Assembly (NCBI GenBank): GCA_034717435.1
Contig: JAYELI010000017.1
Location: 1 to 44,356, forward strand
Source: Candidatus Omnitrophota bacterium
GTDB lineage: Bacteria; Omnitrophota; JAUWXU01
Reading direction: 5' to 3'
Length of the DNA stretch: 44,356 nucleotides
The notes beneath the pieces were generated by a model. That model did no database searches, had not been told where the DNA came from, and was given only the letters and a program-made list of their open reading frames with translations. The stretch's first letter is position 1, and every line of letters begins with the position of its first letter. This document shows positions 2,295-41,427 of this stretch, in pieces. The position numbers and the translations under genes were made by a program.

Positions 2295-2357
2295 TATTGT
2301 TAAATTGTCAAATTGCTAAACTGTTAAAATGAGAGGTTGCAATTTAACAATTTAAAC
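2295..2357 (+). repeat. Octamer-word hairpin (family A) between rplA and rplJ
   Basis: TTGTTAAATTG at 2297-2307 pairs perfectly (11 bp) with CAATTTAACAA at 2340-2350. The 5' arm continues with related 8-nt words (AAATTGCT, AAACTGTT). It fills the spacer from the rplA stop almost to the rplJ ribosome site (GAAGAGG). An L10 autoregulatory leader is often found at this place in other bacteria, but I see only this repeat. Confidence 0.8.
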
Positions 2358-2371
2358 AAAGAAGAGGCAAA

Positions 2372-2899
2372 ATGGCATCGTTTGATAAAGAATTACTAGT
2401 TAAGGAATTGACGAGCAGATTTCAACAGGCCGAAGTTTTAATCTTCACCAAAATTAATAGGCTTAGCGCTATGGAAATGAACCAGTTGAGGCGCAAGCTC
2501 AATACGCAGGCCGGGCAGTACTTGGTTGTTAAAAACCGTCTTGCTGAATTGGCCCTGAAGAACTCAAATCTATCAAAAGGACTTGATTTAATAGAAGATT
2601 CTGTAGGAATAGCTATCAGCAAGGAATCACCGGAGAGTATTTTCAAATCTCTGGTTGATTTTAACAAAGACCACCCGGCGCTGGATATTTGCGGTGCACT
2701 GACAGGTGAAAAATTACTTTCAAGTGATTGCGTAAAAGCCATTGCTGCTTTGCCGAGCCGGGAGGTTTTATTAGCCAGCGTTGTCAGGGGATTGAACGCA
2801 CCGGTCAATGGCTTGGTTAATGCATTAAGCCAGGTAATAAGGAAATTTGTTATCGTACTGGATAAAATCAGAAAGAAACAGGAAAAACAGGGAGGTTAG
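2372..2899 (+). CDS. rplJ: 50S ribosomal protein L10
   Basis: The 175-residue protein anchors L7/L12 dimers on the stalk. The N-terminal rRNA-binding domain includes the conserved [13 protein letters not shown] stretch at about 50-62. The C-terminal helix (about 150-175, [20 protein letters not shown]) is the L7/L12 docking helix. GAAGAGG lies at a normal distance from the ATG. The stop is one base before the ATG of rplL, so the two stalk proteins are translationally linked. Confidence 0.96.
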
Positions 2900-2900
2900 A

Positions 2901-3389
2901 ATGTCTGAGTTGAAAGAAGAAAAGAAAGAGAAGAAGAAACCTGAACCAAAAGCTGAGGCAGAACCTGTTGTGAAAACTGAGGCAAAACCTGCTCCGGAGA
3001 TATCCGACAAGCTCAAAGAGATAATGAAGTCTATTGGACAAATGAGCGTGATAGAGCTGTCTGAATTAGTGAAAGCAATGGAGGATAAATTCGGAGTTTC
3101 AGCTGCTGCTCCGATGATGGCCATGGTTCCTGGTTCTATGGCTGGTCCGGCTGGTGCTGGAGCGGCTGCTGAGGAAAAAACTACCTTTAGCGTTGTTTTG
3201 GCAAAAATAGGGGACAAGAAAATTCAGGTTATTAAAGAAATCAGAAGTATGACCAGCCTGGGCTTGAAAGAGGCTAAGGACTTGGTTGAGGCTGCGCCCA
3301 AGCCGATCAAGGAAGGCGTCTCTAAAGAAGAGGCCGAAGAGATGAAGAAAAAAATCGAAGCCCAGGGCGCGACAGTAGAACTTAAGTAA
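2901..3389 (+). CDS. rplL: 50S ribosomal protein L7/L12 with charged N-terminal extension
   Basis: The ATG at 2901 follows a strong GGGAGG and gives 162 residues. Family members usually have about 120-130. Residues 1-33 are a Lys/Glu/Pro/Ala-rich extension ([16 protein letters not shown]...). Residues 34-68 are the dimerisation domain, 69-92 the Ala/Gly hinge and 93-162 the canonical C-terminal factor-binding domain. The domain order is otherwise normal. In-frame codons upstream lie in rplJ and lack a ribosome site. The extension would sit next to the L10 docking helix; its role is unknown to me. Confidence 0.95.
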
Positions 3390-3409
3390 AAGGATAAAAA
3401 AAGGAAAAA

Positions 3410-6400
3410 ATGTTAAAGCGAAAAAATTATGCGCGCATCCCGGAAGTTATTAATCTACCCAGCCTGATAGAAATTCAGACGTCTTCTTACGAAGATTTTT
3501 TGCAGATAGGCTGTCCGAAAACGAAACGGGAGAATAAAGGTCTGCAGGCGGTTTTTAACCAGGCTTTTCCGATCAAGAGTTATGACGGCGAGGTAACGCT
3601 TAAATTTATCAGTTATTCTCTGGGAAGGCCGAAGTACACTGCTGAAGAATGTCAGAAACGGGGTATAACTTATGCCGCGCCTTTGAAATTGAAATTAAGG
3701 CTCTCCCGGAAAGAGGCGGATCCTAAGGAAGAGGATGTTTATATTGGTGATCTTCCGCTGATGACCAGGACAGGGACATTTATTATAAATGGTGCCGAAA
3801 GGATAGTGGTTAGCCAGCTTCATCGTTCTCCGGGTGTCAGCTTTGAAGAAGCTATTCATCCCAGCGGAAAACGGGTCTATACTGCCCGGCTTATTCCTTA
3901 TCGCGGAGCCTGGTTGGAATTAGAATTGGACATAAATGATGTATTATTTGTTTATATTGATAGGCGCCGAAAGTTTTTAGCCAGCACATTTCTTAAAGCA
4001 TTAGGATGTTCTGATGACGGAGGAATTATAACGCTGTTTTATGAATCTGAATCCTTTAAGATAGATAAGAACCAATCAGTTCATAAGCTGATCAATAGAA
4101 TATTAGCGCATGATATTATTGATAAGGAAAATAATAAACTTCTGGCCAAGGCTGGCCAGAAGATCAGCGAGGATTTATTGAAGGACTTGCGGACGCTCCG
4201 GATCAAAACGGTCAAGGTTTTAAAAGAACCAGTTAAAGATTTTGCCATAATTAATACCTTGCTAAAAGATGTTCATCGTTCTAAAGAAGAAGCATTACTG
4301 GCTATTTATAGAAGGATGCGGCCGGGAGACCCAGCGATAAAAGAAAACGCAGAGGCTTTGATTAACAGACTTTTTCTGGATTCGCACTACTATAATCTTG
4401 GCCGGGTCGGCAGATATATTCTTAATCGAAAATTAAAATTGAATGTGTTGCTGGATAAAAGAATTCTGGAATTGAAAGATATTATAGAAGCTATTAAATA
4501 TTTGGTAAGATTAAAAAACGGCGAGGGCAAAATTGATGATATTGACCATTTAGGTAACCGCCGTGTCAGGACTATCGGCGAATTGCTTCAAAATCAGTTC
4601 AGAGTAGGAATGGCCCGGATGGAACGGTCAATTTTAGAAAGAATGTCAATTTATGATTTAAATTCCGCTATGCCCCATAACTTGATTAATGCCAAGTTGA
4701 TTTCTGCCACTGTTAAGGATTTTTTTGGCCGAAGTCAGCTTTCCCAGTTTATGGACCAGATCAACCCATTAGCTGAATTGACCCATAAGCGCAGGCTTTC
4801 TGCTCTTGGCCCGGGAGGATTAAGCAGGGAAAGGGCGGGATTTGAAGTTAGAGACGTTCATTATTCACATTATGGACGTGTTTGTCCGGTAGAAACCCCC
4901 GAAGGCCCGAACATAGGCTTAATATCTTCACTGAGCACTTATGCCAGAGTAAACGAGTTTGGCTTTTTGGAAAGTCCCTACCGAAAGGTTATTAACGAAC
5001 GGGTAACCGATAAAATCGAATATCTTTCTGCTGATATTGAAGACAAATATGCTATTGCCCAAGCTAATGCAAAATTAGATAAAAAAAATAATTTTATTGA
5101 AGATATTGTATTCTGTAGATATCAGGACGACTTTATCAGGGTACTAAAAGGTAAAGTAGACTATATGGATGTTTCACCTAAACAGCTGGTTGGGGTATCG
5201 GCCAGCCTTATTCCGTTTCTTGAGCATGATGACGCCAACAGGGTGTTGATGGGATCAAATATGCAGCGCCAAGCAGTGCCGCTTCTTACTCCCGAAGCTC
5301 CGTTGATCGGCACAGGGATGGAAGGCGTAGTAGCCAGAGATTCAGGAGTAGTGGTTATAGCTGAGCATTCAGGAGTGGTTAAAGAGGTGACCGCAGACCG
5401 GATTCGAATTGATGAAAAAGAATATCGGCTGACAAAGTTTGCCCGGTCTAACGCAAGCACCTGTATAAATCAGAAGCCGATTGTTTCTGTCGGCGATAAG
5501 ATCAAGAAAGGGCAAGTAATAGCCGATGGCTCGGCCACCTGTCAGGGAGAGCTTTCTCTGGGCAGGAATGTGCTGGTGGCATTTATGCCTTGGCGTGGCT
5601 ATAACTTTGAAGATGCAATTCTGGTCAGCGAAAAGCTGCTTAAAGACGATGCGTATACCTCGATTCATATTGAGGAATTTGAAATAGAAGCCCGGGATAC
5701 TAAATTGGGGAATGAAGAGATAACCTGCGATATTCCCAATGTTGGAGAAGATGCCTTAAGCCACCTGGATGACGAGGGTATTGCTCGGATCGGCGTTGAA
5801 ATCGGGCCAGGAGATATATTAGCAGGAAAAGTTACTCCCAAATCAGAAACAGAACTTTCGCCAGAGGAAAAGTTATTGCGGGCTATCTTTGGCGAAAAAG
5901 CAGGTGATGTAAGAGATGCCTCGCTCACTGCGCCGGCAGGCTTGGAAGGGATAGTGGTAGATGTCAAAGTTTTTTCCAGGAAGTCTGCTGGTCCCAGAAC
6001 CAAGGAACAAAGAAAATCCGAACTTAACCAAATGGATAAGATTCGGCGAAGCTATAAAAAAAGAATATTAGAAATTACCCGGGAGAAGGTTCAAAGGATT
6101 TCCAGCTTTTTAATGGGGAAGGTTTTAGGTGAACCGTTGCTGGATAGCCAATCCGGAGCAATTCTTGTTGCCAAAGGGAAAAAGATCAGCAAGATTAATA
6201 TCAACAAGATTAAGAAATGTGATTTCCAAAACATTAAGTTAGAAACAAACACTGCGGTAGAAGAAGAAATATCCAAGGTTGCCCGAATTTGCGATGATTC
6301 CATCGAGCAGTTGATAGACGAGCAGGAAAAAGAGATCGAATATTTAAAAAAAGGAGATGAACTTCCGCCGGGAGTGATCAAAAAAGTCGTAGTTTATATT

Positions 6401-7147
6401 GCTACGAAAAGAAAGCTGTCGGTAGGCGATAAAATGGCCGGTCGCCACGGCAATAAAGGGGTTATCGCCAAGATACTACCCGAAGAAGATATGCCGTTCT
6501 TGCCCGATGGCACGCCGGTAGAGATAGTTTTAAATCCACTAGGGGTTCCTTCCAGAATGAATGTCGGGCAGATCCTGGAAACTCATTTGGGCTGGGCTGC
6601 TAAAGTATTAGGTTTTTATGTAAAAACGCCTGTTTTTGACGGCGCTGGCGAGTTGCAAATAAAAGAAGAACTCAGAAAGGCCTTTCTTCCCGAAGACGGC
6701 AAGATCAGACTTTATGATGGCCGGACAGGAGAGCCTTTTAAACAGAAGGTAACGGTTGGATATATCTATGTTATGAAATTAGCCCATCTGGTTGCTGATA
6801 AGATCCATGCCCGGTCTATCGGACCTTATTCTTTGGTCACCCAGCAGCCGCTGGGAGGAAAGGCCCAGTTCGGCGGCCAGCGCTTTGGTGAGATGGAAGT
6901 TTGGGCATTAGAAGCTTACGGAGCAGCCTATTGTCTTCAAGAATTGCTTACGGTTAAATCAGACGATGTAAGCGGACGGACCAGGATTTATGAAGCAATT
7001 GTTAAAGGAGAAAATGCGCTTCAGCCGGGAACCCCGGAATCTTTTAACGTGTTAATTAAAGAGCTGCAGAGCCTGGCGTTAGATGTAGCAGTTGAGCGGA
7101 CAAAGGAAAAAGATGGAGGGGTTCTAAAAGCCGATGGGACACGATAA
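3410..7147 (+). CDS. rpoB: DNA-directed RNA polymerase subunit beta
   Basis: The 1245-residue beta subunit is complete. The rifampicin pocket is at about 440-470, with wild-type D449, H459 and S464 (E. coli 516, 526, 531). [12 protein letters not shown] at 1006-1017 belongs to the nucleotide-binding core, and the switch-region motif [11 protein letters not shown] starts at 1162. No intein or frameshift is visible. The spacer after rplL is 20 nt with AAAGGA and AAGGAAA elements. The 3' end overlaps rpoC by 14 nt, the usual tight beta/beta' coupling. Confidence 0.99.
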
Positions 7148-10100: not shown

Positions 10101-11117
10101 ATCCTTACTGAGGTTAAAGGCAAAGTCAGGTTTGAAGATGTAATTAAAGACGTGACTATTAAGGAGGAATTGGATTCAACCACCAATTTGACCAAGAGAG
10201 TAATTGTAGAGCATAAAGAAGATCTTCATCCCCAGATCGTTATTTACGGGTCCAAAAGAGAGATTTTGACGTTTTATCCCATGCCGGTAGGCGTGCATAT
10301 TGTAGTCAAAGATAACCAGGGGGTTAAAGCTGGAGATCTATTAGCGAAAACTCCTCGTAAGTTTATCAAGACCAGAGATATTACCGGTGGGCTGCCCAGA
10401 GTAGCCGAGCTATTTGAGGCCAGGCGGCCCAAAAATCCAGCGGTTATCAGCGAAATTGACGGAACAGTCGAATTTGGCGAAGCGCCGAAGGGGCAAAGAA
10501 AGATTGTTGTTAAATCGCCGACCGGAATGAAAAAGGAATACACCGTACCCTATGATAGCCATCTTAATGTTTATAAGGGCGATAAGGTGATAGCCGGTGA
10601 GCAGTTGATCGAAGGCCCGATAGTGCCCCATGATATTTTAAGGGTTCGCGGAGATAAACATCTTCAGGAATATCTGGTTAGAGAGATTCAGGAGGTTTAC
10701 CGTCTGCAGGGCGTGCGGATAAATGATAAACATATCGAGGTTATCGTCAAGCAAATGCTTAGAAAGGTAAGAATAGAGAATTCGGGTGATACAGAATTTT
10801 TGGTCGGAGCAAATGTGGATAAGTTCAGGTTTCACGAGGAAAATGAGAAAATGGCCAAAAAGAACAAACAGCCTGCCCGGGCAACTCCGCTGCTCTTGGG
10901 GATAACCAAAGCGTCCTTAGACACAGATAGTTTTATTTCTGCGGCCAGTTTTCAGGAAACCACCCGTATTTTAACGGATGCAGCTGCCAGAAGCAGAAAG
11001 GACAGCTTGCTTGGTCTTAAAGAAAATGTTATCATGGGCCATCTTATTCCGGCCGGAACGGGATTCAGGGAACATCGAGAGATCGAAATGGTAAAGAAGA
11101 TAGCTGAAGAGAAATAA
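7134..11117 (+). CDS. rpoC: DNA-directed RNA polymerase subunit beta'
   Basis: The 1327-residue subunit is complete. The N-terminal zinc site is C62/C64/C77/C80. The catalytic magnesium motif NADFDGD is at 450-456. The second zinc site is C776/C850/C857/C860, and the trigger-loop motif [19 protein letters not shown] is at 880-898. The ATG at 7134 lies in the end of rpoB with GGAGGGG about 13 nt upstream. There is no large lineage-specific insertion, so the length is near the short end of the family. A family A hairpin separates it from rpsL. Confidence 0.99.
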
Positions 11118-11219
11118 ATAAATTGCTAAACTGTTAAACTGTTAAATGGATAAAGTATTTTTTAAATAACAATTTAGCCATTTAGCAATTTAACAATTTA
11201 AATGAGGAGTTAAACGATA
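11118..11219 (+). repeat. Octamer-word hairpin cassette (family A) between rpoC and rpsL
   Basis: The 23-nt arm at 11127-11149 pairs with 11178-11200, with one G-U and two A-C mismatches. The arm is built of repeated 8-nt words (AAACTGTT). The loop holds AGTATTTTTTAAATAAC. The element begins at the rpoC stop and ends in the ribosome site module GAGGAGTTAAACGATA. Bases 11125-11219 are identical to 11608-11702 upstream of rpsG. Confidence 0.9.
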
Positions 11220-11220
11220 G

Positions 11221-11592
11221 ATGCCGACAGTAAGCCAGTTAATCAGAAAAAGAAGAAAGAGTAGTTTTAAAAAGAGTAAGTCCAAAGCCATGGAGGGTTC
11301 ACCCCAGAAAAAAGGTGTTTGCTTATTGGTTAAGACACAGACGCCCAAAAAACCGAATTCCGCCCTTCGCAAAGTAGCCAGGGTCCGTTTAACTAATAAT
11401 ACAACAGTGACTGCTTATATTCCGGGTGTTGGCCACAATCTTCAAGAGCACTCAATAGTGACTATCAGGGGCGGCAGGGTTAAAGACCTGCCTGGTGTGA
11501 GATATCACATAGTCAGGGGGATGCTTGATACTGCCGGTGTTACTGACCGGAAGAAATCAAGATCCAAATACGGATCAAAGAGAGGGAAATAA
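11221..11592 (+). CDS. rpsL: 30S ribosomal protein S12
   Basis: The 123-residue decoding-centre protein has the conserved [17 protein letters not shown] segment with the wild-type lysine at the streptomycin-resistance site, and the [11 protein letters not shown] and [10 protein letters not shown] motifs. Its translation start is inside the shared cassette (GAGGAGTTAAACGATAG then ATG). It opens the str cluster, placed directly after rpoC without a promoter that I can recognise. Confidence 0.99.
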
Positions 11593-11702
11593 ATAAACTG
11601 CTAAACTGCTAAACTGTTAAACTGTTAAATGGATAAAGTATTTTTTAAATAACAATTTAGCCATTTAGCAATTTAACAATTTAAATGAGGAGTTAAACGA
11701 TA
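11593..11702 (+). repeat. Octamer-word hairpin cassette (family A) between rpsL and rpsG
   Basis: This is a near copy of the rpoC-rpsL spacer. Bases 11608-11702 equal 11125-11219 exactly (95 bp). The predicted hairpin is 11610-11683. The 5' arm has one more octamer than its twin (AAACTGCT repeated before AAACTGTT), a difference expected from slippage. It ends with GAGGAGTTAAACGATA just before the rpsG ATG. Confidence 0.92.
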
Positions 11703-11703
11703 A

Positions 11704-18400: not shown

Positions 18401-18685
18401 ATGGGACGCTCGTTAAAAAAGGGTCCATACGTTGACCCCAAGCTTCTAATAAAGGTTGATAAAGCAAGAAAGTCGGGTGACCGAAAGGCGATTAAGACCT
18501 GGTCCCGGCGTTCTACCATAACCCCGGATTTTATAGGTTTGACCGTATCTGTCCATAATGGGAAAAAGTTTATGCCGGTCTTTATTACCGAAAACATGGT
18601 TGGGCATAAGCTGGGTGAGTTTTCGCCGACCAGGATATTCAGAAGGCACGGTTCTGCCACCGAGGTTTCTGTAGCGTTGAAGTAA
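18401..18685 (+). CDS. rpsS: 30S ribosomal protein S19
   Basis: The 94-residue protein of the 30S head has the [14 protein letters not shown] start and the [20 protein letters not shown] and GEFSPTR motifs. AGAGGTAATTTAAT is the ribosome site in the spacer after rplB. A family A hairpin cassette starts directly after its stop codon. Confidence 0.98.
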
Positions 18686-18782
18686 ATAAATTGTTAAATT
18701 GTTAAACTGCTAAATCGATAAAGTATTTTTTAAATAACAATTTAGCCATTTAGCAATTTAACAATTTAAATGAGGAGTTGAA
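18686..18782 (+). repeat. Octamer-word hairpin cassette (family A) between rpsS and rplV
   Basis: The 21-nt arm at 18695-18715 pairs with 18748-18768 with a single A-C mismatch. The loop and 3' arm (GATAAAGTATTTTTTAAATAAC and onward) are nearly identical to those upstream of rpsL and rpsG. The cassette ends in GAGGAGTTGAACGA, a one-base variant of the shared ribosome site module. Confidence 0.9.
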
Positions 18783-18790
18783 CGACGACA

Positions 18791-19129
18791 ATGATTTCTA
18801 GGGCAATTGCCAAATATATCAGGATTTCTCCCCAGAAGGTAAGGCAGGTAACCCGATTAGTCCAGGGTAAAAATGCCCAGAGGGCTCTGGTTATTTTAGC
18901 CGGGGTAAACAAAAAGTCTGCTGGCTGCATTGCCAAGGTTTTAAAGTCGGCAGTTAGTAATGCCAAACAAAAGCCGGAAATAAATGAACAGGATCTGTAT
19001 ATTTCCAAGGTGGTTGCGGATAAAGGCCCGATGCTGAAAAGGTTTCGGCCGCGGGCAATGGGCAGGGCTGCTTCGATTTTAAAAAAAACAGCTCATATAA
19101 CTGTAGAATTAGACAAAAAACCGAACTAA
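18791..19129 (+). CDS. rplV: 50S ribosomal protein L22
   Basis: The 112-residue protein lines the exit tunnel. The start AIAKYIRISPQKVRQVTRLV and the loop-bearing C-terminal RFRPRAMGRAASILKKTAHI are typical. The start uses GAGGAGTTGAACGACGACA from the hairpin cassette. The stop codon is itself part of the next hairpin stem (19127-19141). Confidence 0.98.
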   Translation: MISRAIAKYIRISPQKVRQVTRLVQGKNAQRALVILAGVNKKSAGCIAKVLKSAVSNAKQKPEINEQDLYISKVVADKGPMLKRFRPRAMGRAASILKKTAHITVELDKKPN

Positions 19130-19230
19130 ATTGTTAAATTGCAAGATGAAAAAAATACTCAGAGTTAAAAGTTATCAGTTTAGCAATTTAGCCATTTGAC
19201 AATTTGACAATTTAAATAAGGAGTTAAACG
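19127..19230 (+). repeat. Octamer-word hairpin cassette (family A) between rplV and rpsC
   Basis: TAAATTGTTAAATTG at 19127-19141 includes the rplV stop and pairs over 15 bp, with one U-G wobble, with CAATTTGACAATTTA at 19200-19214. The 3' side repeats 8-nt words (CAATTTAG, CCATTTGA). It ends with AAGGAGTTAAACGGA before the rpsC ATG. Confidence 0.87.
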
Positions 19231-19237
19231 GAAGATT

Positions 19238-22383: not shown

Positions 22384-22526
22384 CATTGCTAAACTGCTAA
22401 ACTGTTAAACCGGAGATTTGTCTTCTAAGTTTTAAAACGCGAATTTTTCATAACAGCCTGCGTTAAAGCATGTTTTCAGAGATTTTCAATTTAACAGTTT
22501 AGCAGTTTAACCATTTAACAATTTAA
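22384..22526 (+). repeat. Octamer-word hairpin cassette (family A) between rpsN and rpsH, 80-nt loop
   Basis: The arms at 22390-22409 and 22490-22509 are perfectly complementary over 20 bp. The 80-nt loop at 22410-22489 differs from all other copies and has its own weak AACGC/GCGTT pairing. The 3' side continues with AACCATTTAACAATTTAA. The ribosome site is AGAGGTAGCTAA, so this copy does not carry the GAGGAGTTAAAC module. Confidence 0.9.
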
Positions 22527-22539: not shown

Positions 22540-22938
22540 ATGAGTATTACAGATCCAATAGCGGATGGCTTGACCATAATCAGGAATGCCGGCCGGGCCG
22601 GGCACGAAAAAGCCGATATTCCTGCTTCCGGAGTGATGGAAGAGATTGTAAGGATTTTAAAAAAAGAAGGATATATTTCTAATTATAAAAAAATTTCTGA
22701 TAATAAACAGGGGACATTAAGGACTTATTTAAAATTTACTTCCAGGAATAAACCGATTATCAAAAACATTAAAAGGATTTCAAAACCGGGACTGCGTATT
22801 TATGTTAACCGCGGCAAGATACCCACGGTTTTGCAGGGGATGGGAATGAGTATACTTTCAACCTCTAAGGGTGTTTTGACTGGCAAGACTGCCCGAGAAA
22901 AGAAAGTTGGCGGAGAAGTACTGTGCTACGTGTGGTAA
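22540..22938 (+). CDS. rpsH: 30S ribosomal protein S8
   Basis: The 132-residue protein binds the central domain of 16S rRNA. SITDPIADGLTIIRNA, the KPGLRIYVNRGKIPTVLQG region and the C-terminal GEVLCYVW are signatures. AGAGGTAGCTAA is the ribosome site. The stop is immediately followed by a family A hairpin. Confidence 0.98.
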   Translation: MSITDPIADGLTIIRNAGRAGHEKADIPASGVMEEIVRILKKEGYISNYKKISDNKQGTLRTYLKFTSRNKPIIKNIKRISKPGLRIYVNRGKIPTVLQGMGMSILSTSKGVLTGKTAREKKVGGEVLCYVW

Positions 22939-23059
22939 ATTGCTATATTGTTAAACTGTTGAACTGTTAAACTGCTAAACTGTTAAATTGTGACGTGAGA
23001 AAATGCTTAGGATCACAAGTTAGCAATTTAGCCATTTGACAATTTAAATTAGGAGTTAA
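22936..23059 (+). repeat. Octamer-word hairpin cassette (family A) between rpsH and rplF
   Basis: The 5' side is a run of 8-nt words (AAACTGTT, GAACTGTT, AAACTGCT, AAACTGTT, AAATTGTG). The 3' side has AGTTAGCAATTTAGCC and ATTTGACAATTTAAA. TTGTGA and TCACAA close an inner loop whose sequence (ACGTGAGAAAATGCTTAGGA) is homologous to the loop upstream of secY. It ends in TAGGAGTTAAAGACGA before the rplF ATG. Confidence 0.85.
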
Positions 23060-23068
23060 AGACGAAAA

Positions 23069-24500: not shown

Positions 24501-24891
24501 AGGCCGGGGGATTGGTTCAGGCCATGGCAAGACATCTTGCCGGGGACATAAAGGCCAGAAGGCCCGTTCCGGCGGTGGAGTGCGGCCTGGCTTTGAGGGG
24601 GGACAGATGCCTTTGAGCAGAAGGATTCCCAAAAGAGGTTTTTGCTCCCAGTTTAAGAAGCATTATCAGCTGATTAATCTCGATCAACTCGAGGGTCTTG
24701 ACAAGAACTCAGTGGTTACGCCGGATAGCTTAAAAGAATGCAAGAGTATAAAAAAGATAGATCAGAACATTAAAATTCTGGGTGGGGGCGGACTCTCCAA
24801 GCCATTGACTGTAAAGGCTCATGCTTTTTCTAAAAATGCAAAAGAAAAAATAGAAAAAGCCGGAGGGAAAATTATATTGCTAAATTGTTAA
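24466..24891 (+). CDS. rplO: 50S ribosomal protein L15 (short N-terminus)
   Basis: The 141-residue protein has the [20 protein letters not shown] core and the [17 protein letters not shown] segment. The N-terminal LxxLxP-type segment common in L15 is missing; the protein starts [15 protein letters not shown]. The ATG at 24466 follows AGAGGAAAAGG and lies 35 nt inside rpsE, so the short N-terminus may result from the overlap. The TAA stop is part of the next hairpin stem. Confidence 0.95.
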
Positions 24892-24990
24892 ATTGCTAAA
24901 CTGTTAAATTGTAACGTAAGAAAATACTTAGAATTAGAAGTTAGCAATTTAACTATTTAACAGTTTAGCAATTTAAAAGAGGAGTTAAAC
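24876..24990 (+). repeat. Octamer-word hairpin cassette (family A) between rplO and secY
   Basis: The 21-nt arm at 24888-24908, which contains the rplO stop codon, is perfectly complementary to 24956-24976. The loop (GTAACGTAAGAAAATACTTAG) is homologous to that upstream of rplF. The cassette ends with GAGGAGTTAAACAACGATAA before the secY ATG. Confidence 0.93.
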
Positions 24991-24998
24991 AACGATAA

Positions 24999-26330
24999 AT
25001 GTTAAAAGCGTTAAGTAATGTTTTTAAGATAGCGGATTTAAAAAAGAAAATACTTTTTACATTCGGTTTAATCGCGGTTTATAGAATCGGCGCGTTTATT
25101 CCTACTCCGGGTATTGACGGAAGGGCGTTGGCCCAGTTCTTTGATAATATAGCTAAAACTCAAGGCGGGACATTATTCGGCCTGATGAATATGTTTACTG
25201 GCGGCGCTATGACCAGGATGACGATTTTTGCCCTGGGAATTATGCCTTATATTTCGGCATCGATTATCCTCCAGCTTTTAACAGTAGTCATTCCCCAATT
25301 AGAGAAATTAAGCAAGGAAGGCGAGATTGGCCGGCGCAAATTAACCCAGTATACCCGCTATGGCACGGTCGTACTCTGTATTATCCAATCCTTTTTTATC
25401 AGTTTATGGCTTGAGAACTCTGCCCATTTCCAGGGTATCCAAATCGTTCAATTTCCCGGGTGGTCGTTCAGGCTGCTAACCGTCCTTACCCTGACTGCGG
25501 GTACGACGTTTATTATGTGGGTCGGCGAGCGGATTACTGAACGGGGTATAGGAAACGGGATTTCATTGATAATTACCGCAGGTATTGTTTCAAGAATGCC
25601 GGCTGCGTTTTATCAGCTTTACGTTCTTTTAATCAAGAAACAGGTGGATATCTTGACCGTTGGCTTGATGCTGGTAATGCTATTGGCTGTTATCGTGAGT
25701 ATAATCCTTATTACCCAGGGCCAGCGCCGGATACCTGTTCAATATGCCCGCAGGATCGTCGGCCGCCGGGTTTACGGAGGGCAAAGCACCTATATACCGC
25801 TTCGGGTTAATCAGGCAGGGGTTATCCCGATTATTTTCGCCCAATCGGTTATTCTTTTTCCGGCTACCATTGCCGGGCTCATTCCCGGAAGGGCTGTTCA
25901 GACCATAGCTAACTTGCTGGTGCCAGGCAAGGCTTTTTACGAAATCTTTTATGCGATTATGATAATTTTCTTCTGTTACTTTTACACTGCGATCACTTTT
26001 AATCCGGTAGACATAGCTGACAATATGAAAAGATACGGTGGCTTTGTGCCGGGGATCAGGCCGGGCAGGCCGACGGCGGTTTATTTTGACCATATAATGA
26101 CCAGGATCACCTTAAGCGGTGCTGTATTCCTGGCGATTGTCGCAATACTCCCCCATTTTGTTTCGCAGGGGTTTAAGATACCTTATTTGGTAGCCAGCTT
26201 TTTTGGCGGGACAGGAGTTTTAATTATCATCGGAGTAATCCTGGATACCATGAAACAGATAGAATCCCAGCTTTTAATGCGGCATTACGAAGGTTTTATG
26301 AAAAAAGGAAAGATCAGGGGAAGGCGATAA
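24999..26330 (+). CDS. secY: Preprotein translocase subunit SecY
   Basis: The 443-residue channel protein has ten predicted membrane segments. The plug and pore region (YRIGAFIPTPGID near the start), ERGIGNGISLIITAGIV, the cytoplasmic loop with RRIPVQYARRIVGRR and the late NPVDIADNMKRYGGFVPGIR are all family signatures. The ribosome site is the GAGGAGTTAAAC module. Its partner SecE is encoded at 475-660. A family A hairpin separates it from adk. Confidence 0.98.
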   Translation: MLKALSNVFKIADLKKKILFTFGLIAVYRIGAFIPTPGIDGRALAQFFDNIAKTQGGTLFGLMNMFTGGAMTRMTIFALGIMPYISASIILQLLTVVIPQLEKLSKEGEIGRRKLTQYTRYGTVVLCIIQSFFISLWLENSAHFQGIQIVQFPGWSFRLLTVLTLTAGTTFIMWVGERITERGIGNGISLIITAGIVSRMPAAFYQLYVLLIKKQVDILTVGLMLVMLLAVIVSIILITQGQRRIPVQYARRIVGRRVYGGQSTYIPLRVNQAGVIPIIFAQSVILFPATIAGLIPGRAVQTIANLLVPGKAFYEIFYAIMIIFFCYFYTAITFNPVDIADNMKRYGGFVPGIRPGRPTAVYFDHIMTRITLSGAVFLAIVAILPHFVSQGFKIPYLVASFFGGTGVLIIIGVILDTMKQIESQLLMRHYEGFMKKGKIRGRR

Positions 26331-26430
26331 ATTAAATTGCTAAACTGTTAAATTGCTAAACTGTTAAATTAAAAGATAATTTATATAACAGTTTGACCAT
26401 TTAGCAATATAGCAATTTAGCAATTTAATT
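26330..26430 (+). repeat. Octamer-word hairpin cassette (family A) between secY and adk
   Basis: AATTAAATTGCTAAA at 26330-26344 pairs perfectly over 15 bp with TTTAGCAATTTAATT at 26416-26430. The 5' arm then repeats AAACTGTTAAATTGCT twice, and the 3' arm has several TTTAGCAA words. It begins at the secY stop. AATAAGGAGAAGG follows as ribosome site, without the TTAAACGA part of the module. Confidence 0.88.
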
Positions 26431-26446
26431 AATAAGGAGAAGGCTG

Positions 26447-28120: not shown

Positions 28121-28230
28121 AAGTACGATCTTCGGTTAAAATAATGTGCGCCAAGTGCAAGATTATCAGGCGGAAAGGAGTAGTAAGAGTAATCTGCTCC
28201 AATCCGAAACATAAACAGAGACAGAAATAA
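28117..28230 (+). CDS. rpmJ: 50S ribosomal protein L36 (zinc form)
   Basis: The protein is 37 residues ([20 protein letters not shown]...). The zinc ligands C11, C14, C27 and H32 are all present, the C+ form. The ATG overlaps the infA stop (ATGA). Its place between infA and rpsM is the conserved one. Confidence 0.97.
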
Positions 28231-28275
28231 ATTGCTAAACTGTTATAGCAATTTAGCAATTTAGCCATTTAGCAA
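28228..28275 (+). repeat. Minimal octamer-word hairpin (family A) between rpmJ and rpsM
   Basis: ATTGCTAAA at 28231-28239 pairs with TTTAGCAAT at 28252-28260. More 8-nt words (TTTAGCCA, TTTAGCAA) follow. This is the shortest copy of the family. The ribosome site AAGGAGGT comes after it and is stronger than the GAGGAGTTAAAC module. Confidence 0.8.
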
Positions 28276-28293
28276 TATTATTAAGGAGGTAGG

Positions 28294-29699: not shown

Positions 29700-29827
29700 A
29701 CACAGATGAGCGCGGATAAAGGATAAATCCTAAAAAGGTCATAAGTCATAAGTCATAAAACTTATAACCTATGACCTATGACTTAATCTGATTTATTTAG
29801 TTTTTAATAGCTAATAAACATTTGTGT
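29700..29827 (+). repeat. Nested hairpin element with GTCATAAG words between rpsD and rpoA
   Basis: An outer helix forms between ACACAGATG at 29700-29708 and CATTTGTGT at 29819-29827 (9 bp, one G-U). Inside, GGTCATAAGTCATAAGTCAT runs are opposed by TATAACCTATGACCTATGACTT, an imperfect inverted repeat of 7-8-nt words. The element starts just after the rpsD stop and ends before the CAGGAGG ribosome site of rpoA. Confidence 0.8.
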
Positions 29828-30819: not shown

Positions 30820-31356
30820 ATGCGGCACAAAAAGAAAAAGAAGAGAATTAAAGCCCACAGGGTTGGGCATAGAAAAGCCATCATCAGAAGCCTTCTGATC
30901 AGTTTGTTTACGCACCAGAGGATCAAGATTACTGTAGCCCGGGCCAAGGAGATTAGGCGGTTAGCTGATCGATTAATCAGTTTAGCCAAACAGCCCACAG
31001 TGCACAGGCAGCGGCAGGCCATCAAGACGTTACAGGACAGGTCGTTGGTAAAAAAGTTATTTACAGAAATAGGGCCTAAGTTTGAACATCGTCAGGGAGG
31101 TTATACGCGGCTGATCCGTATCTCGCCGCGGGCGGGCGATAAAGCTGAAATGGCAATTCTGGAGTTGACTGAATTAATAGCTTCCAAGCCGGCTAAGCTT
31201 AAAAAAGAAGAGCAGGTAGATAAAAAACCACTGCTGAAAAAAGAGACAAAGCCGGAAAAAGAAGTAAAGCCGAAAGAAAAAGCAAAGCCGAAGGTAAAAA
31301 AACCCGAAGGTTTTTTGCGAGGCTTGAGAAAATATTTTAGGCATGAATCTGGCTAA
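30820..31356 (+). CDS. rplQ: 50S ribosomal protein L17 with Lys/Glu/Pro-rich C-terminal extension
   Basis: The 178-residue protein is longer than the common 115-130 residues. The L17 core spans about 1-122 (GHRKAIIRSLLISLFTHQRI, GGYTRLIRISPRAGDKAEMA). Residues 123-178 are a tail of KPEKEVKPKEKAKPK-type repeats ending in GFLRGLRKYFRHESG, with a basic amphipathic end. It starts directly at the rpoA stop and overlaps the aminotransferase gene by 14 nt, so the ribosomal run is coupled to metabolism. Confidence 0.95.
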   Translation: MRHKKKKKRIKAHRVGHRKAIIRSLLISLFTHQRIKITVARAKEIRRLADRLISLAKQPTVHRQRQAIKTLQDRSLVKKLFTEIGPKFEHRQGGYTRLIRISPRAGDKAEMAILELTELIASKPAKLKKEEQVDKKPLLKKETKPEKEVKPKEKAKPKVKKPEGFLRGLRKYFRHESG

Positions 31357-32512
31357 AAAAATTGCCGGTATTAAGCCGTCCGTAACCTTAGCTGTCACTA
31401 GCCAGGCTAAACAGATGGCTGGCCGGGGTATCAGGGTCATAAATTTTGCAGCCGGAGAACCGGATTTCAATACTCCTCTGCATGTCAGAACAGCCGCAAT
31501 CCAGGCCATTAATAACGGGTTTACCAAATATACTCCTGTTTCCGGCGCAAGAGAGCTTAAAGCAGCCATCTGCGATAAGCTTAGGCGCGATAATGCGTTA
31601 AATTATCAGACAGAACAAATTGTCGTTTCCTGCGGGGCTAAACACTCCTTATTTAATATCCTTCAGGTCTTATGTCAAAAAGGCGATCAAGTAATAATTG
31701 CCTCTCCTTATTGGGTAAGCTATCCCCAGATGGTTAAGCTGGCCGGCGCCAGGCCGATTATTATTCCGACAAAAATAAATAATCAATTTAAGATGACCGG
31801 AAAGCAGTTAGCATCTTCGATTACTTCCCGGACCAGGGCAGTTATCTTAAACAGCCCGGCTAACCCGACCGGCAGTGTTTATAACCGGGAAGAACTTGCA
31901 GAAATAGCCAGGGTTGTCCTCAGGCATAATATATATCTGATCAGCGACGAAATTTATGAAAAGATAATCTATGATAAAAAGCGCCATATTTCTATTGCTT
32001 CCCTGAACAAGAAAGTTAATAAAATAACCATTGTAGTAAACGGCCTGTCCAAGGCCTATTCGATGACCGGCTGGAGGATAGGATATTTGGCCGGGCCAAA
32101 AGAGCTTGCTTCGGCCGTAGCTGTTCTCCAGAGCCATTCTACGTCTAATCCTAATTCAATTGCCCAGAAGGCAGCCCTGACAGCTTTAAACGGCAAGGAA
32201 GAGTTTATCGTTAAGATGCAAAAGGAATTTAGCAAAAGACGTAACTATCTTTTAAAAGAAATTCGAAAAATAGATAAAATTTCATTTTCTAAACCCGAAG
32301 GCGCGTTTTATTTATTCTGTGATATATCGAAAACAGGCAGAGGTTCGTTAAATTTTAGCCAAAAACTCCTTGAACGGGAAAAAGTGGCTGTGGTGCCCGG
32401 CGTTGCTTTTGGAGAAGATAATTACATCCGGCTTAGCTTTGCTACGGGCATGGAAGATATAAAAGAAGGAGTGAATAGGTTGGCGAAGTTCATAAGCCGC
32501 ATTAGGCCATAG
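31343..32512 (+). CDS. PLP-dependent aspartate-type aminotransferase (class I)
   Basis: The 389-residue enzyme fits the fold-type I AspB subgroup. AAGEPDFNTP near residue 31, NSPANPTGSVYN, ISDEIYEKIIY, the PLP-lysine K237 in NGLSKAYSMTGWRIGY and the carboxylate-binding R363 in NYIRLSFAT are all visible. Likely reaction: aspartate + 2-oxoglutarate to oxaloacetate + glutamate, but related enzymes also use prephenate or aromatic acids, so I give no symbol. The ATG overlaps the end of rplQ by 14 nt. The next genes could supply its 2-oxoglutarate. Confidence 0.9.
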   Translation: MNLAKKIAGIKPSVTLAVTSQAKQMAGRGIRVINFAAGEPDFNTPLHVRTAAIQAINNGFTKYTPVSGARELKAAICDKLRRDNALNYQTEQIVVSCGAKHSLFNILQVLCQKGDQVIIASPYWVSYPQMVKLAGARPIIIPTKINNQFKMTGKQLASSITSRTRAVILNSPANPTGSVYNREELAEIARVVLRHNIYLISDEIYEKIIYDKKRHISIASLNKKVNKITIVVNGLSKAYSMTGWRIGYLAGPKELASAVAVLQSHSTSNPNSIAQKAALTALNGKEEFIVKMQKEFSKRRNYLLKEIRKIDKISFSKPEGAFYLFCDISKTGRGSLNFSQKLLEREKVAVVPGVAFGEDNYIRLSFATGMEDIKEGVNRLAKFISRIRP

Positions 32513-32581
32513 GTCATAGGCCATAAGTAAAAACCCATGACATATGGTTTACCAATTTCTTATGATCTATAACCCATGACG
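32513..32581 (+). repeat. GTCATAGG/GCCATAAG hairpin between aminotransferase and leuC-like gene
   Basis: The spacer starts within the stop codon with CCATAGGTCATAGGCCATAAG and ends with CTTATGATCTATAACCCATGAC. GGTCATAGGCCATAAG and CTTATGATCTATAACC pair at 13-14 of 16 positions counting one G-U. The words are shared with the rpsD-rpoA element. No clear ribosome site lies between it and the ATG at 32594. Confidence 0.7.
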
Positions 32582-35589: not shown

Positions 35590-35652
35590 AAAAAGTAAGC
35601 AGTGGTGTGGGCTATGAGCTATGAGCCCAAAGCCCAAAGCTAAGTGCATAGC
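35590..35652 (+). repeat. GCTATGAG/GCCCAAAG hairpin element upstream of thiL
   Basis: GGGCT at 35609-35613 and AGCCC flank ATGAGCTATG, a GGGCTATGAGCTATGAGCCC hairpin. GCCCAAAGCCCAAAG words follow. The element starts with AAAAAGTAAGCAGT at 35590-35603, which matches 13 of 14 bases at 37052-37065 upstream of rsmA. It lies 16 nt after the dehydrogenase stop. Confidence 0.75.
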
Positions 35653-35666
35653 ATTAGGGGCGTAAC

Positions 35667-37067: not shown

Positions 37068-37131
37068 TGTGAACTTTGGGCTATGAGCTTTGGGCTATGA
37101 GCTAAAAAGCGCACAGCGCACAGCTCATAGC
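37052..37131 (+). repeat. GCTTTGGGCTATGAG hairpin element between tsaE and rsmA
   Basis: CTTTGGGCTATGAG occurs twice in tandem. GCTATGAGCT at 37094-37103 pairs perfectly with AGCTCATAGC at 37122-37131. The loop contains AGCGCACAGCGCACAGC, the same words found in the insertion inside tsaD. The left end AAAAGGTAAGCAGT overlaps the last codons of tsaE and matches the start of the element upstream of thiL. Confidence 0.8.
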
Positions 37132-37146
37132 TGATCTGTATATAAA

Positions 37147-37983: not shown

Positions 37984-38031
37984 CTTTTAAATAAGGCTGT
38001 GTTATTTTGGTTTTTAACCGGGGGTGTTATC

Positions 38032-38310
38032 TTGAGTACCATAGACATTAATTATGCGGCAAAGCTGGCCAGGATCGGGTTGACCGATTCGGAAAAGGGG
38101 CGTTTTGCCAAAGACCTTTCCACTATCTTAGACTACATTAACAAGTTAAATCAGTTAGATACCGGGCAAGTCCCGTCCACCAGCCATGTAATCAAACTTC
38201 AGAATGTATTCAGAGAAGACAAGGTTTTGGATTCTTTGACAACAGATCAGGCCTTGGATAATGCACCGATGAAAGACGGAACATCTTTTAAGGTGCCGAG
38301 AGTGCTTTGA
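38032..38310 (+). CDS. gatC: Aspartyl/glutamyl-tRNA amidotransferase subunit C
   Basis: The 92-residue protein is the small subunit that wraps GatA and GatB. I chose the TTG at 38032 (MSTIDINYAAKLARIGLT) because GGGGG lies 7 nt upstream; the GTG at 37999 would add a hydrophobic stretch not found in GatC. FAKDLSTILDYINKLNQLDT and the C-terminal FKVPRVL are typical. It precedes gatA and gatB. Its last codons and stop run into the next hairpin spacer. Confidence 0.92.
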   Translation: MSTIDINYAAKLARIGLTDSEKGRFAKDLSTILDYINKLNQLDTGQVPSTSHVIKLQNVFREDKVLDSLTTDQALDNAPMKDGTSFKVPRVL

Positions 38311-38346
38311 GCTTTAAGCTCATAGCCCAAAGCTCATAGCTCATAG
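38308..38346 (+). repeat. GCTTTGAGCTTTAAGCTCATAGC hairpin between gatC and gatA
   Basis: The sequence after the stop is a run of GAGCTTTAAGCTCATAGCCC and AAGCTCATAGCTCATAGAGG words. GAGCTTTAAGCTC is a self-complementary hairpin with its first bases in the gatC stop codon region. The words are shared with the elements upstream of thiL, rsmA and gatB. Confidence 0.7.
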
Positions 38347-38368
38347 AGGGAATTAAAGGTCACGGACA

Positions 38369-39799
38369 ATGGGATTGAATGAATTAACCGCCCACGAAAT
38401 GCTGGCTAAAATAAAGAAAAAAGAAATATGTTCCCATGAAGTGGTTAAAGATATCTTTAAGCAGATCGAATGCTTTGAAAAAGATATAAATGCCTATGTC
38501 TTTCTGGATAAACAGGCATCGCTTAACCAGGCAAAGGCCAGACCCGCCGGCATTCCGGTTGCTGTCAAAGATAATATTTGCACCAAAGGCAAGCCGACCA
38601 CTTGCGGTTCAAAGATATTAAGCGGGTTCAGGCCGCCGTACAATGCCGGCGTTATTCAAAAACTTGAGGCTTCAAAGGCTGTTTTTATCGGAAAGACCAA
38701 TATGGATGAATTTGCCTTTGGCTCCTCTACCGAGACCTCCTGTTTTGGCCCGACCCGTAATCCCTGGAATTTAAAAACTATTCCCGGCGGATCAAGCGGA
38801 GGTTCGGCAGCTGCTGTCAGCGCTGATCAGGCCATCTTGGCAATCGGTTCAGATACCGGCGGCTCGATCAGACAGCCTGCTGCAATGTGCGGAGTGGTAG
38901 GCTTAAAGCCTACCTATGGCCGCGTTTCCCGTTTTGGCCTGATTGCTTTTGCCTCTAGCCTTGACCAGATCGGTGTGATTACAAAAGACGTAGAGGATGC
39001 TGCCTTGCTTTTAAATATGATCGCCGGACATGATCCTTGTGATTCCACATCTGTTGATTTAGCTGTTCCCGATTATACTCAGGTGCTCCGGGCCGGTGTT
39101 AAAGGATTAAAGATAGGCATACCTAAAGAATACTTTGGCCGGGGCATTGACCGGGAGGTGGAAGATTCAGTGCGCAACGCGATTAAAAAGTTATCTGATT
39201 TAGGGGCTGAATGCCGGGAGGTAAGCCTGCCCCACACTGAATTTGCGGTCAGCGTATATTACATCCTGGCGCCTGCCGAGGCCTCATCGAATCTTGCCCG
39301 ATACGACGGCATCCAGTATGGTTATCGGGCAAAAGAAGAAAACCTGCTTGATACCTATTTCGATACCAGAAAACAAGGGTTTGGCCGGGAGGTCAAACGG
39401 AGGGTGATATTAGGGACTTATGCCTTAAGCAGCGGGTATTACGAGGCATATTATATTAAGGCCCAGAAGGTTCGCACCCTGCTCAAGAAAGATTTTGACA
39501 AGGTTTTTTCCCGCTATGATTTGATTTTAACCCCTACCTCTCCGACGCCTGCGTTCAATATCGGAGAAAAAATCAATGACCCTCTCAAGATGTATCTTTC
39601 AGACATACTTACTATTCCGGTTAATCTGGCTGGACTGCCGGCGGTATCGATTCCCTGCGGTTTTACTGCTTCAGGATTGCCGATCGGTCTTCAGATTATA
39701 GCTAAACCATTTAACGAAGAAGCTATTTTTAAATGCGCTTACGCGTTTGAGCAGAACACTGGCTATCACCTGAAAAAACCGGAAATAGAACACAAGTGA
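38369..39799 (+). CDS. gatA: Aspartyl/glutamyl-tRNA amidotransferase subunit A
   Basis: The 476-residue amidase-signature subunit releases ammonia from glutamine. The catalytic triad is K67 (AVKDNI), S142 (GGSSGGS) and S166 (SDTGGSIRQPA), with the same spacing as in characterised GatA. The ammonia passes to GatB to convert misacylated Glu-tRNA(Gln) or Asp-tRNA(Asn). The ATG at 38369 follows GGTCACGGACA, a weak ribosome site. Presence of gatCAB suggests the organism lacks one of the direct synthetases. Confidence 0.97.
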   Translation: MGLNELTAHEMLAKIKKKEICSHEVVKDIFKQIECFEKDINAYVFLDKQASLNQAKARPAGIPVAVKDNICTKGKPTTCGSKILSGFRPPYNAGVIQKLEASKAVFIGKTNMDEFAFGSSTETSCFGPTRNPWNLKTIPGGSSGGSAAAVSADQAILAIGSDTGGSIRQPAAMCGVVGLKPTYGRVSRFGLIAFASSLDQIGVITKDVEDAALLLNMIAGHDPCDSTSVDLAVPDYTQVLRAGVKGLKIGIPKEYFGRGIDREVEDSVRNAIKKLSDLGAECREVSLPHTEFAVSVYYILAPAEASSNLARYDGIQYGYRAKEENLLDTYFDTRKQGFGREVKRRVILGTYALSSGYYEAYYIKAQKVRTLLKKDFDKVFSRYDLILTPTSPTPAFNIGEKINDPLKMYLSDILTIPVNLAGLPAVSIPCGFTASGLPIGLQIIAKPFNEEAIFKCAYAFEQNTGYHLKKPEIEHK

Positions 39800-39835
39800 G
39801 CTTTGAGCTCAAAGCTCAAAGCTCAAAGCTCAAAA
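39798..39835 (+). repeat. GAGCTTTGAGCTCAAAGCTC palindrome between gatA and gatB
   Basis: GAGCTTTGAGCTCAAAGCTC at 39798-39817 is a perfect 20-nt palindrome that overlaps the gatA stop codon, followed by tandem AAAGCTC words. AAAGGAGTTGAAAGC follows as ribosome site of gatB, with the same GGAGTT start as the family A module. Confidence 0.8.
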
Positions 39836-39852
39836 GGAGTTGAAAGCAACCA

Positions 39853-41277
39853 GTGAAGTACGAAGCGAATATCGGCTTAGAGGTGCATGTTCAGCTTTCC
39901 ACGAAAAGCAAGATATTTTGCGGATGCAGCACCCGGTTTGGAGCCCGGCCCAATAGCCAGACCTGTCCGGTTTGCCTGGGACTGCCCGGGTCTTTGCCTG
40001 TTTTAAATAAAGAAGTGCTTAACAGGGCTGTTAAAGTTGCCTTGGCTTTAAACTGCAAGATAGCCGGTAAGCTTAAGTTTGACCGCAAAAATTATTTTTA
40101 TCCGGATCTGCCTAAAAACTATCAGATTTCCCAATTTGGCGAACCCCTTTCTTATCAGGGTTATCTGGAAGTCGCCGGCAGACGGATAGGAATTGTCAGG
40201 GTTCATTTGGAAGAGGACGCCGGCAAGCTCGTGCATCCGGAATTATCCGTTAAGACGAGCCTGGTTGATTTTAATCGCGCAGGTATACCTTTACTGGAAA
40301 TCGTAAGCACTCCTGAGATATCTTCTCCAGAGGAGGCTTACCGGTATCTTTCATTGTTAAAATCAATTTTAGGTTATTTAGAGATAAGCGATTGCAATAT
40401 GGAGAAAGGCAGTCTTCGCTGTGATGCCAATGTCTCGATCAGGCCTCAGGGCACGGCCTCTTTAGGCGCGAAGGTAGAAATAAAGAATATGAATTCATTC
40501 AAAGGGGTTAAAGACGCGCTAAGTTATGAACTTTCCCGCCAGGAGAAAATGCTTGCTGGAGGAGAAAGGATAATTCAGGAAACCAGGTTATGGGATGCGG
40601 CAGAAGGCGTTACCAAATCTATGCGCAGTAAAGAAGAAGCCCATGATTACCGTTATTTTCCCGAGCCGGATCTGGTGCCGTTTGTAATTGAACCGGCTGA
40701 GATTGAAGCGATAAAAGACCAGCTTCCCGAACTTCCCGGAAGCAAAAAAGAACGCTTTAAAAAAGATTATTTTCTTTCCGATTATGACGCCGGGGTATTG
40801 ATTTCCAGTAAGGATTTAGCGGATTATTTTGAGGAATGCGTTAAATCGTATAACAATCCCAAGCAGATCAGCAACTGGATTACCGGTGAGGTGCTGGCCC
40901 AATTGAATTTGAGACACGTGAGGATAAAAGAACTTGGCCTTTTAGCTTCCCATTTAGCCGAATTGATCAAGATGGTGGATTCCGAAGAGATTAATATTAA
41001 GATGGCTAAGCAGATATTGCCGGAATTAATCGAAAAGAAGTCCTCTCCCGCTGAAATAGTAAAAAACAGGGGTTTGGTCCAGGTCTCGAGCAAGGATCAG
41101 TTGGCCGGGATAATAGATAAAGCAATAGAAGATAACCCGGGATCGGTTAAAGATTACCAGGGTGGCAAAGTCAGGGCCCTGGAATTTTTAGTAGGCCGGG
41201 TAATGAGGCAGACAAAGGGGATGGCCAATCCCCGGATGGTAAACGAGATATTAAAAGAGCGGCTTAAAAATAGCTAA
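39853..41277 (+). CDS. gatB: Aspartyl/glutamyl-tRNA amidotransferase subunit B
   Basis: The 474-residue protein activates and amidates the misacylated tRNA. GLEVHVQLSTKSKIFCGC, the zinc ligands C23, C25, C38 and C41, FDRKNYFYPDLPKNYQIS, MEKGSLRCDANVSIRP and the tail domain with KGMANPRMVNEIL are family signatures. The start is GTG with GGAGTT about 13 nt upstream. The usual GatCAB complex is complete here. The largest family A array follows directly after the gene. Confidence 0.97.
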   Translation: MKYEANIGLEVHVQLSTKSKIFCGCSTRFGARPNSQTCPVCLGLPGSLPVLNKEVLNRAVKVALALNCKIAGKLKFDRKNYFYPDLPKNYQISQFGEPLSYQGYLEVAGRRIGIVRVHLEEDAGKLVHPELSVKTSLVDFNRAGIPLLEIVSTPEISSPEEAYRYLSLLKSILGYLEISDCNMEKGSLRCDANVSIRPQGTASLGAKVEIKNMNSFKGVKDALSYELSRQEKMLAGGERIIQETRLWDAAEGVTKSMRSKEEAHDYRYFPEPDLVPFVIEPAEIEAIKDQLPELPGSKKERFKKDYFLSDYDAGVLISSKDLADYFEECVKSYNNPKQISNWITGEVLAQLNLRHVRIKELGLLASHLAELIKMVDSEEINIKMAKQILPELIEKKSSPAEIVKNRGLVQVSSKDQLAGIIDKAIEDNPGSVKDYQGGKVRALEFLVGRVMRQTKGMANPRMVNEILKERLKNS

Positions 41278-41427
41278 ACTGATAAATAGCTAAATTGCTA
41301 AACTGTTAAACTGATAAATTGCTAGATATACTGCTAAATTGCTAAACCAGTATAGCAATTTAGCAATTTAACCATTTAACAATTTAGCCATTTAGCCATT
41401 TAACAATATAACCATTTAACAATTTAT
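41271..41427 (+). repeat. Largest octamer-word array (family A) between gatB and the S41 protease gene
   Basis: About 150 nt consist almost only of 8-nt words. The 5' half has AAATTGCT, AAACTGTT, AAACTGAT and AAATTGCT; the 3' half has TTTAGCAA, TTTAACCA, TTTAACAA and TTTAGCCA. Central stems are TATACTG at 41327-41333 with CAGTATA at 41348-41354, and TAAATTGCTA at 41315-41324 with TAGCAATTTA at 41361-41370. It begins inside the end of gatB (AATAGCTAA) and ends before the GGAGG of the next gene. Confidence 0.88.

Follow-up and report, generated by a model that had tools for sequence, protein, structure and literature searches.

What has filled so many spacers in the ribosomal supercluster of a Candidatus Omnitrophota bacterium with hairpins of one kind? 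The DNA in question is contig JAYELI010000017.1 (44,356 nt in total, hereafter the window), which belongs to a draft genome of ~1.0 Mb in 60 contigs that is 96% complete (G000, hereafter the source genome), and the hairpins are cassettes built of the octamer AAAYTGYT. A preliminary description of the window had noted them in eleven spacers and proposed either a role in RNA, such as insulation of cistrons or cleavage, or a palindromic element supplying a ribosome site of its own. Our analysis suggests that the cassettes are probably copies of lineage-expanded, near-neutral (selfish) palindromic elements. They are multi-copy and mostly intergenic, lie between a stop codon and a Shine-Dalgarno (SD) site with a fixed polarity, have been copied as whole units at some junctions and are absent from the corresponding junctions of the sister genome.

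The longest inverted repeats in the window are the AAAYTGYT cassettes. In total, 34 AAAYTGYT and 30 ARCARTTT words were counted, that is, 64 octamers, compared with a mean of 12-15 and a maximum of 25 expected from Markov models of order 1-3. All 11 spacers named in the preliminary description carry tandem AAAYTGYT words (W), followed by a core and then by inverse words (V), the complete layout being upstream stop codon, tandem W, core, inverse words and SD region. The W words occur in the variants AAATTGCT, AAACTGTT, AAATTGTT, AAATGGCT, AAACTGCT, AAATGGTT and AAACTGAT. The elements, each of the AAAYTGYT family, are:

2292..2357, + strand, rplA-rplJ spacer; weak copy with two W and one V word
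11115..11220, + strand, rpoC-rpsL spacer; SD tail GAGGAGTTAAACGA, core type A
11590..11703, + strand, rpsL-rpsG spacer; SD tail, core type A, 99% identical to rpoC-rpsL
18683..18790, + strand, rpsS-rplV spacer; SD tail, core type A, 95% identical
19127..19237, + strand, rplV-rpsC spacer; SD tail AAGGAGTTAAACGG, few exact words
22385..22524, + strand, rpsN-rpsH spacer; perfect stem of 20 bp
22936..23068, + strand, rpsH-rplF spacer; SD tail, core type B
24874..24998, + strand, rplO-secY spacer; SD tail, core type B, perfect stem of 22 bp, final rplO residues encoded by words
26328..26446, + strand, secY-adk spacer
28228..28293, + strand, rpmJ-rpsM spacer; tight palindromic centre GTTATAGC
41268..41425, + strand, gatB-ctp spacer; longest arms in the window

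The common design of the eleven spacers and the SD module shared by six of them were thus confirmed, and two further statements of the preliminary description needed adjustment. The 5′ arm, said to begin at or inside the upstream stop codon, does so to within a few nt in nine of the 11 spacers, the exceptions being rplA-rplJ, where the stop codon is TAG, and rpsN-rpsH, where the stop codon is TGA and the first word follows ~8 nt later. The stems, given as 9-23 bp and often perfect, have longest perfect stretches of 8-22 bp: the 20 bp at rpsN-rpsH stand, the stem at rplO-secY measures 22 and not 21 bp, and those at rpsL-rpsG and rplV-rpsC only 8 bp.

The cassettes are not specific to the ribosomal cluster; spacers genome-wide are filled by the same type of element, and other word families follow the same design. 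AAAYTGYT 16-mers occur 144 times in the source genome and 11 times in a reversed-pattern control. A census in 206 kb of the source genome (stretches selected in part by word content, with genes called as simple open reading frames) yielded 43 elements with at least three exact words. Although 93% of the bases in this sample are coding, 228 words were noncoding and 62 coding. The arrays begin near a stop codon and most finish ~5-25 nt ahead of a start codon, and among the 37 elements flanked by called genes on both sides 35 lie between codirectional and two between convergent genes. The order W then inverse W was seen in 23 of 23 elements with two words on each side; W and inverse W form terminal inverted repeats, a feature of miniature inverted-repeat transposable elements, in every complete element. 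About eleven elements have the tight palindromic centre GYTATARC, and others have cores of recurrent types. The SD tail GAGGAGTTAAACGA is found almost nowhere in the sample other than in the six ribosomal spacers; the idea of a palindromic element with its own ribosome site fits these six, and most copies are devoid of the tail. Separately, on the coding strand C occupies word position 4 in 49 of 112 cases in 5′ arms and in 22 of 105 cases in 3′ arms (window and other elements of the source genome).

Some spacers of the window are near-identical to one another. The rpsL-rpsG spacer shares 99% identity over 101 nt with that of rpoC-rpsL, and the rpsS-rplV spacer is 95% identical over 100 nt to the rpoC-rpsL type. 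Identities of 95-99% over ~100 nt imply that stop-hairpin-SD units were copied whole. A sister genome (G001; 72% complete) is available from the same family, which comprises these two genomes only. There, the gene overlap is 26 nt for rpoC/rpsL and 4 nt for rpsL/rpsG, compared with spacers of 103 and 111 nt in the source genome. Together with the copied spacers, this upholds the earlier proposal, in that an entire stop-to-start module can be what is repeated. Likewise, the secY-adk spacer has ~14 nt in the sister versus 116 nt, the rpsN-rpsH spacer 23 versus 163 nt, and the rpsS-rplV spacer 39 nt, without an element, versus 105 nt; the rplO-secY spacer of the sister is short and has different words. 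Other sister spacers hold hairpins or arrays of different words (CGTATTG/CAATACG, GTGACGA and CTAGATAC). Thus, unrelated, stemless sequence in relatives, which the preliminary description would have counted against its family, was found in part: the sister sequence is indeed unrelated, but several of its spacers have hairpins of other words. The occupation of one slot by different words applies to the S10-spc spacers of the two Omnitrophota genomes and also to the zwf-ybaK spacer of two Peribacteria genomes (G058 and G399). Divergence between source and sister is too great to fix exact junctions at the empty sites.

Two blocks of the S10 operon are swapped in the sister genome (L033, contig C105, reverse strand), the order being rpsJ-[rpsC-rplP]-[rplW-rplB-rpsS-rplV]-[rplC-rplD]-rpmC, and CGTATTG/CACGACGAAGTGA words stand at three junctions of this operon. 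The swap is either a real rearrangement via word repeats or an assembly error.

AAAYTGYT is one of several word families. A de novo search for tandem periods in the source genome returned periods 7 and 8 nearly exclusively, and the families recovered (AAAYTGYT, GCTDTGR, GYCATAR, GTTRYGC, CTGGAAR, AGTGTCAW and others) have the head-to-head design in common; GCTDTGRGCTDTGRGC, for example, occurs 76 times, with no occurrence in the control. Most long intergenic gaps of the source genome are occupied by such hairpin elements of 7-8 nt words. In word hairpins of the other families the first arm has more G than C in 22 of 26 cases, versus 23 of 62 non-periodic inverted repeats. The window contains the following:

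29736..29786, + strand, GYCATAR heptamer word hairpin, rpsD-rpoA spacer
32513..32580, + strand, GYCATAR-type word hairpin, spacer after the open reading frame 31343-32512
35611..35652, + strand, GCTDTGR heptamer word hairpin
37077..37131, + strand, GCTDTGR heptamer word hairpin
38311..38346, + strand, GCTDTGR words in inverse orientation (3′ arm only), before gatA
39800..39834, + strand, GCTTTGA/GCTCAAA words, gatA-gatB spacer
42697..42761, + strand, CTGGAAR heptamer word hairpin, ctp-tsaD spacer
43507..43613, + strand, GTGCGTC-type heptamer word hairpin, in frame within tsaD (42820-43926)

The last of these encodes 41 residues of TsaD at a place where the Thermotoga protein has 4, and so adds 37 residues in frame between the positions corresponding to T. 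maritima residues 221 and 226. Though a single case, the tsaD insertion is the clearest sign that word hairpins enter sites as units. Of another kind are GC-rich hairpins of the GTCATTCTGCGGCTTGACCGCAGAATCC type at L042 (~2507-2548) and L039 (~4195-4333), which we take to resemble the widespread dRS3-like GTCATTCCC...GGGAATCC repeats.

The AAAYTGYT vocabulary occurs patchily in unrelated phyla, with bursts in single genomes. A search of GTDB contigs for hairpins with two words in each arm gave 54 loci, hosted within Patescibacteria by Peribacteria, Magasanikbacteria, Falkowbacteria, Parcubacteria, Roizmanbacteria and others, and beyond them by Omnitrophica, Bacteroidota, Hatepunaea (phylum Electryoneota) and one Desulfuromonadaceae metagenome-assembled genome. 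These loci are intergenic as far as simple gene calls show, and their variant words are identical to those of the source genome. All 64 elements of other phyla read W then inverse W, with no reverse or mixed cluster, although their loci had been retrieved with a pattern already of that order. Copy numbers are very uneven. The source genome has 144, whereas none of 57 relatives exceeds seven and none of the other genomes among 384 of the phylum exceeds 15; the Peribacteria genome G058 has 268, and its 39 relatives have three or fewer each. The second family, GCTDTGR, is common to the source genome (76) and G058 (49) and is frequent in several Peribacteria relatives too. A long AAAYTGCT word array was also seen in another Omnitrophota genome (G111, contig C35, 7874-7969). 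No viral contig matched the hairpin pattern, and spread on viruses was rejected on that ground.

Could the hairpins nevertheless be functional intercistronic RNA structures that insulate cistrons, direct cleavage or protect 3′ ends, with the SD site just past the stem? The predicted RNA folds of the cassettes are strong (z = -1.6 to -7.6) and leave the SD outside the stem, the elements extend from stop codon to SD, the ribosomal copies share the SD tail, and none of the few divergent spacers sampled in the source genome (0/3) has an element. A selected stem, however, should have arms better matched within than between elements, and U-G replacing C-A on the transcribed strand; neither was found. 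For the inner two words, matching within elements was 0.470 in the source genome, where swapped arms gave 0.570 (P 0.007, 22 non-redundant elements); the corresponding values for other phyla were 0.668 and 0.716 (P 0.014, 64 elements). These statistics are modest and come from tests picked during data inspection. We restrict the claim to the arms being not more matched, given that perfect palindromes were possibly lost in assembly and that arm lengths are unequal in the energy test; the lower matching may arise because perfect palindromes were purged or were lost in this way. On the coding strand, C-A mismatches outnumbered T-G wobbles (56 versus 29). Moreover, the spacers of G058 carry elements in six of 17 divergent, eight of 41 codirectional and one of 15 convergent cases, most elements are missing at the same junctions of the sister genome, and one hairpin lies inside tsaD. 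No T tract follows the stems, which are AU-rich and so do not qualify as intrinsic terminators, and a terminator scan of the sequences gave nothing above shuffles; terminators and promoters were rejected, their signals not exceeding those of shuffles. An Rfam search of the window returned one tRNA as the sole match above the gathering score. A conserved RNA role of the stem is not indicated, and a functional intercistronic hairpin is an unlikely explanation of the cassettes. Near-perfect stems follow from a small vocabulary written head to head. Fold-back copying of one arm was also rejected, the arms being less matched than swapped arms.

Arrays that bind a protein at the DNA level, for uptake, segregation or nucleoid organisation, are somewhat less probable still. 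The vocabulary is bounded yet degenerate across phyla, polarity is fixed, and word families differ at the same slots between relatives, much as in the lineage-specific word dialects of DNA uptake sequences (PMC3630211). Against this, a single genome holds several word families unrelated to each other, copy number varies greatly among relatives, and the words are not scattered singly but form extragenic hairpins. Moreover, we know of no protein that binds them. It is improbable that the arrays were written by addition of words to the 3′ ends on both sides of a break, which were then joined like fused telomeres. Such a process would account for W always preceding inverse W, and it fits the absolute polarity of each family, the G-over-C bias of first arms, the independence of the arms in word order and number, and the tight GYTATARC joins. 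But homology between copies extends to whole cores and spacers, which requires copying, and polarity is equally explained by descent of a palindromic element. A reverse-transcriptase (telomerase-like) origin was rejected because no PF00078 match was found in the source and sister genomes, G058 or G399. Avoidance of start codons was dropped as a cause of polarity, since the second arm of the GYCATAR family contains ATG.

The repetitive extragenic palindromic (REP) elements with their REP-associated tyrosine transposases (RAYTs), or integron attC sites, are a very improbable source. RAYT-like Y1 transposases (Y1_Tnp) occur in 12 of the 14 genomes searched, with three in the source genome, and there is a resemblance to attC core boxes in the strings GTTAAAY and RYYYAAC. 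Yet RAYT genes are flanked by other sequences and never by AAAYTGYT words, a GTAG/CGTC tag lies within 14 nt of an end in only six of the 43 elements, which is not above chance, and G001 and G059 have the words with no RAYT detected; a RAYT/REP origin was rejected, Y1_Tnp genes not being linked to words. The attC outer-box order RYYYAAC ... GTTRRRY is reversed in 15 of the 16 elements with both boxes, and other families lack the boxes. In the source genome, a gene for a C-terminally extended, RAYT-like Y1 transposase (L114/L117, contig C57, ~24.8-25.9 kb) is flanked by inverse GGGGTCAGTCCTCGAAAATCGAAAA copies and represents a separate type of mobile element. Finally, chance in AT-rich DNA or an assembly artefact can be practically dismissed: the genome is a 60-contig draft with some arrays at contig ends, but the words are enriched over Markov and reversed-pattern controls, the same elements occur in independently assembled genomes of other studies, and GC-rich families share the design.

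We therefore return to selfish palindromic elements. Each is ~65-160 bp long and has a variable core flanked by two arrays of a degenerate 7-8 nt word that face each other head to head. The elements would spread by insertion or by gene conversion or template switching between junctions, and a copy would be tolerated only if it left the stop codon, the SD and the reading frame intact. The arms may grow, shrink and reshuffle through slippage and word exchange. The AAAYTGYT word would furnish stop codons in all frames, so that reading into an array terminates at once. The hairpin would be a by-product of the head-to-head arrays rather than a maintained RNA structure, and as a side effect the overlapping, probably translationally coupled rpoC/rpsL and rpsL/rpsG pairs would become separately initiated. 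Several points weigh against this explanation. Neither a target-site duplication nor a transposase was identified, no parent transposon was found, and the RAYT genes of the source genome bear boundary repeats of their own. The direction, i.e. gain in the source genome rather than loss in the sister, rests on two genomes and on the 99% identity of copies. The SD tail is conserved among the six ribosomal copies, and the orientation tally in the sampled part of the source genome (39 codirectional, three convergent, 0/3 divergent) is likewise predicted by a functional intercistronic role.

It is also conceivable, though doubtful, that gene junctions are the target of a system not described before, which writes or maintains arrays of 7-8 nt words head to head; the words would be made by an enzyme, or be its recognition code, and not be drifted repeats. 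Each lineage would then use a few words of a cross-phylum vocabulary with fixed strand polarity; AAAYTGYT and GCTDTGR occur jointly in one Omnitrophota and one Peribacteria genome. The elements form a class of bacterial intergenic repeats with degenerate words, strand polarity, swapping of words at the same junctions, and entry into ribosomal operons and an essential gene. If confirmed, they would be a further kind of selfish or written DNA in candidate phyla and account for much of the intergenic sequence there. They raise the testable question of by what enzyme or process unrelated bacteria come to carry the same words, and they warn against interpreting such hairpins as ribosomal regulators.

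None of the exact words was found printed in the literature searched, but several known systems are comparable. Rickettsia palindromic elements (RPEs) are ~150-bp palindromes with several families per small genome and in-frame insertions in protein genes (PMC10969869). The present elements resemble them in that a discrete palindrome has been inserted in frame into a coding sequence, here tsaD (one case), a likeness in behaviour and not by sequence comparison. However, RPEs have a family-wide consensus and are best known in coding insertions, whereas the elements described here have arms of tandem degenerate 7-8-mers, are mainly intergenic and belong to word families common to several phyla. 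REP elements and the related bacterial interspersed mosaic elements, which go with RAYT transposases, are extragenic palindromes in many copies per genome (PMC3733652, PMC2817692). Multicopy extragenic palindromes and RAYTs are likewise present in the source genome, but the elements lack the GTAG/CGTC tag and RAYT flanking, have tandem-word arms and are longer. Repetitive hairpin elements of organelles fill spacers and burst independently in relatives; those of mitochondria have conserved helices, with substitutions in the loop (PMC2800124). Spacer filling and independent bursts are shared, whereas the arms are uncoupled here. The short tandemly repeated repetitive (STRR) heptamers of cyanobacteria form period-7 intergenic arrays, but are not described as head-to-head hairpins of fixed polarity. 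Heptameric repeats are abundant in bacteria (PMC4692102), and the TAACTGA repeats are tandem 7-nt spacer words, some in ribosomal protein operons, distributed patchily in Beggiatoaceae, Cyanobacteria and Bacteroidetes (MacGregor 2015, PMC4679880). They are direct only, consist of one exact word and mostly lie directly before start codons, usually without an SD (PMC4679880). With TAACTGA and STRR repeats the present elements share a tandem 7-nt intergenic unit, periods 7 and 8 dominating here, but they differ from TAACTGA repeats in having other words, an inverse arm, a vocabulary of variants and turnover at the same slot. By analogy, the closest system in behaviour would seem to be the RPEs, and the closest in material the TAACTGA heptamer family.

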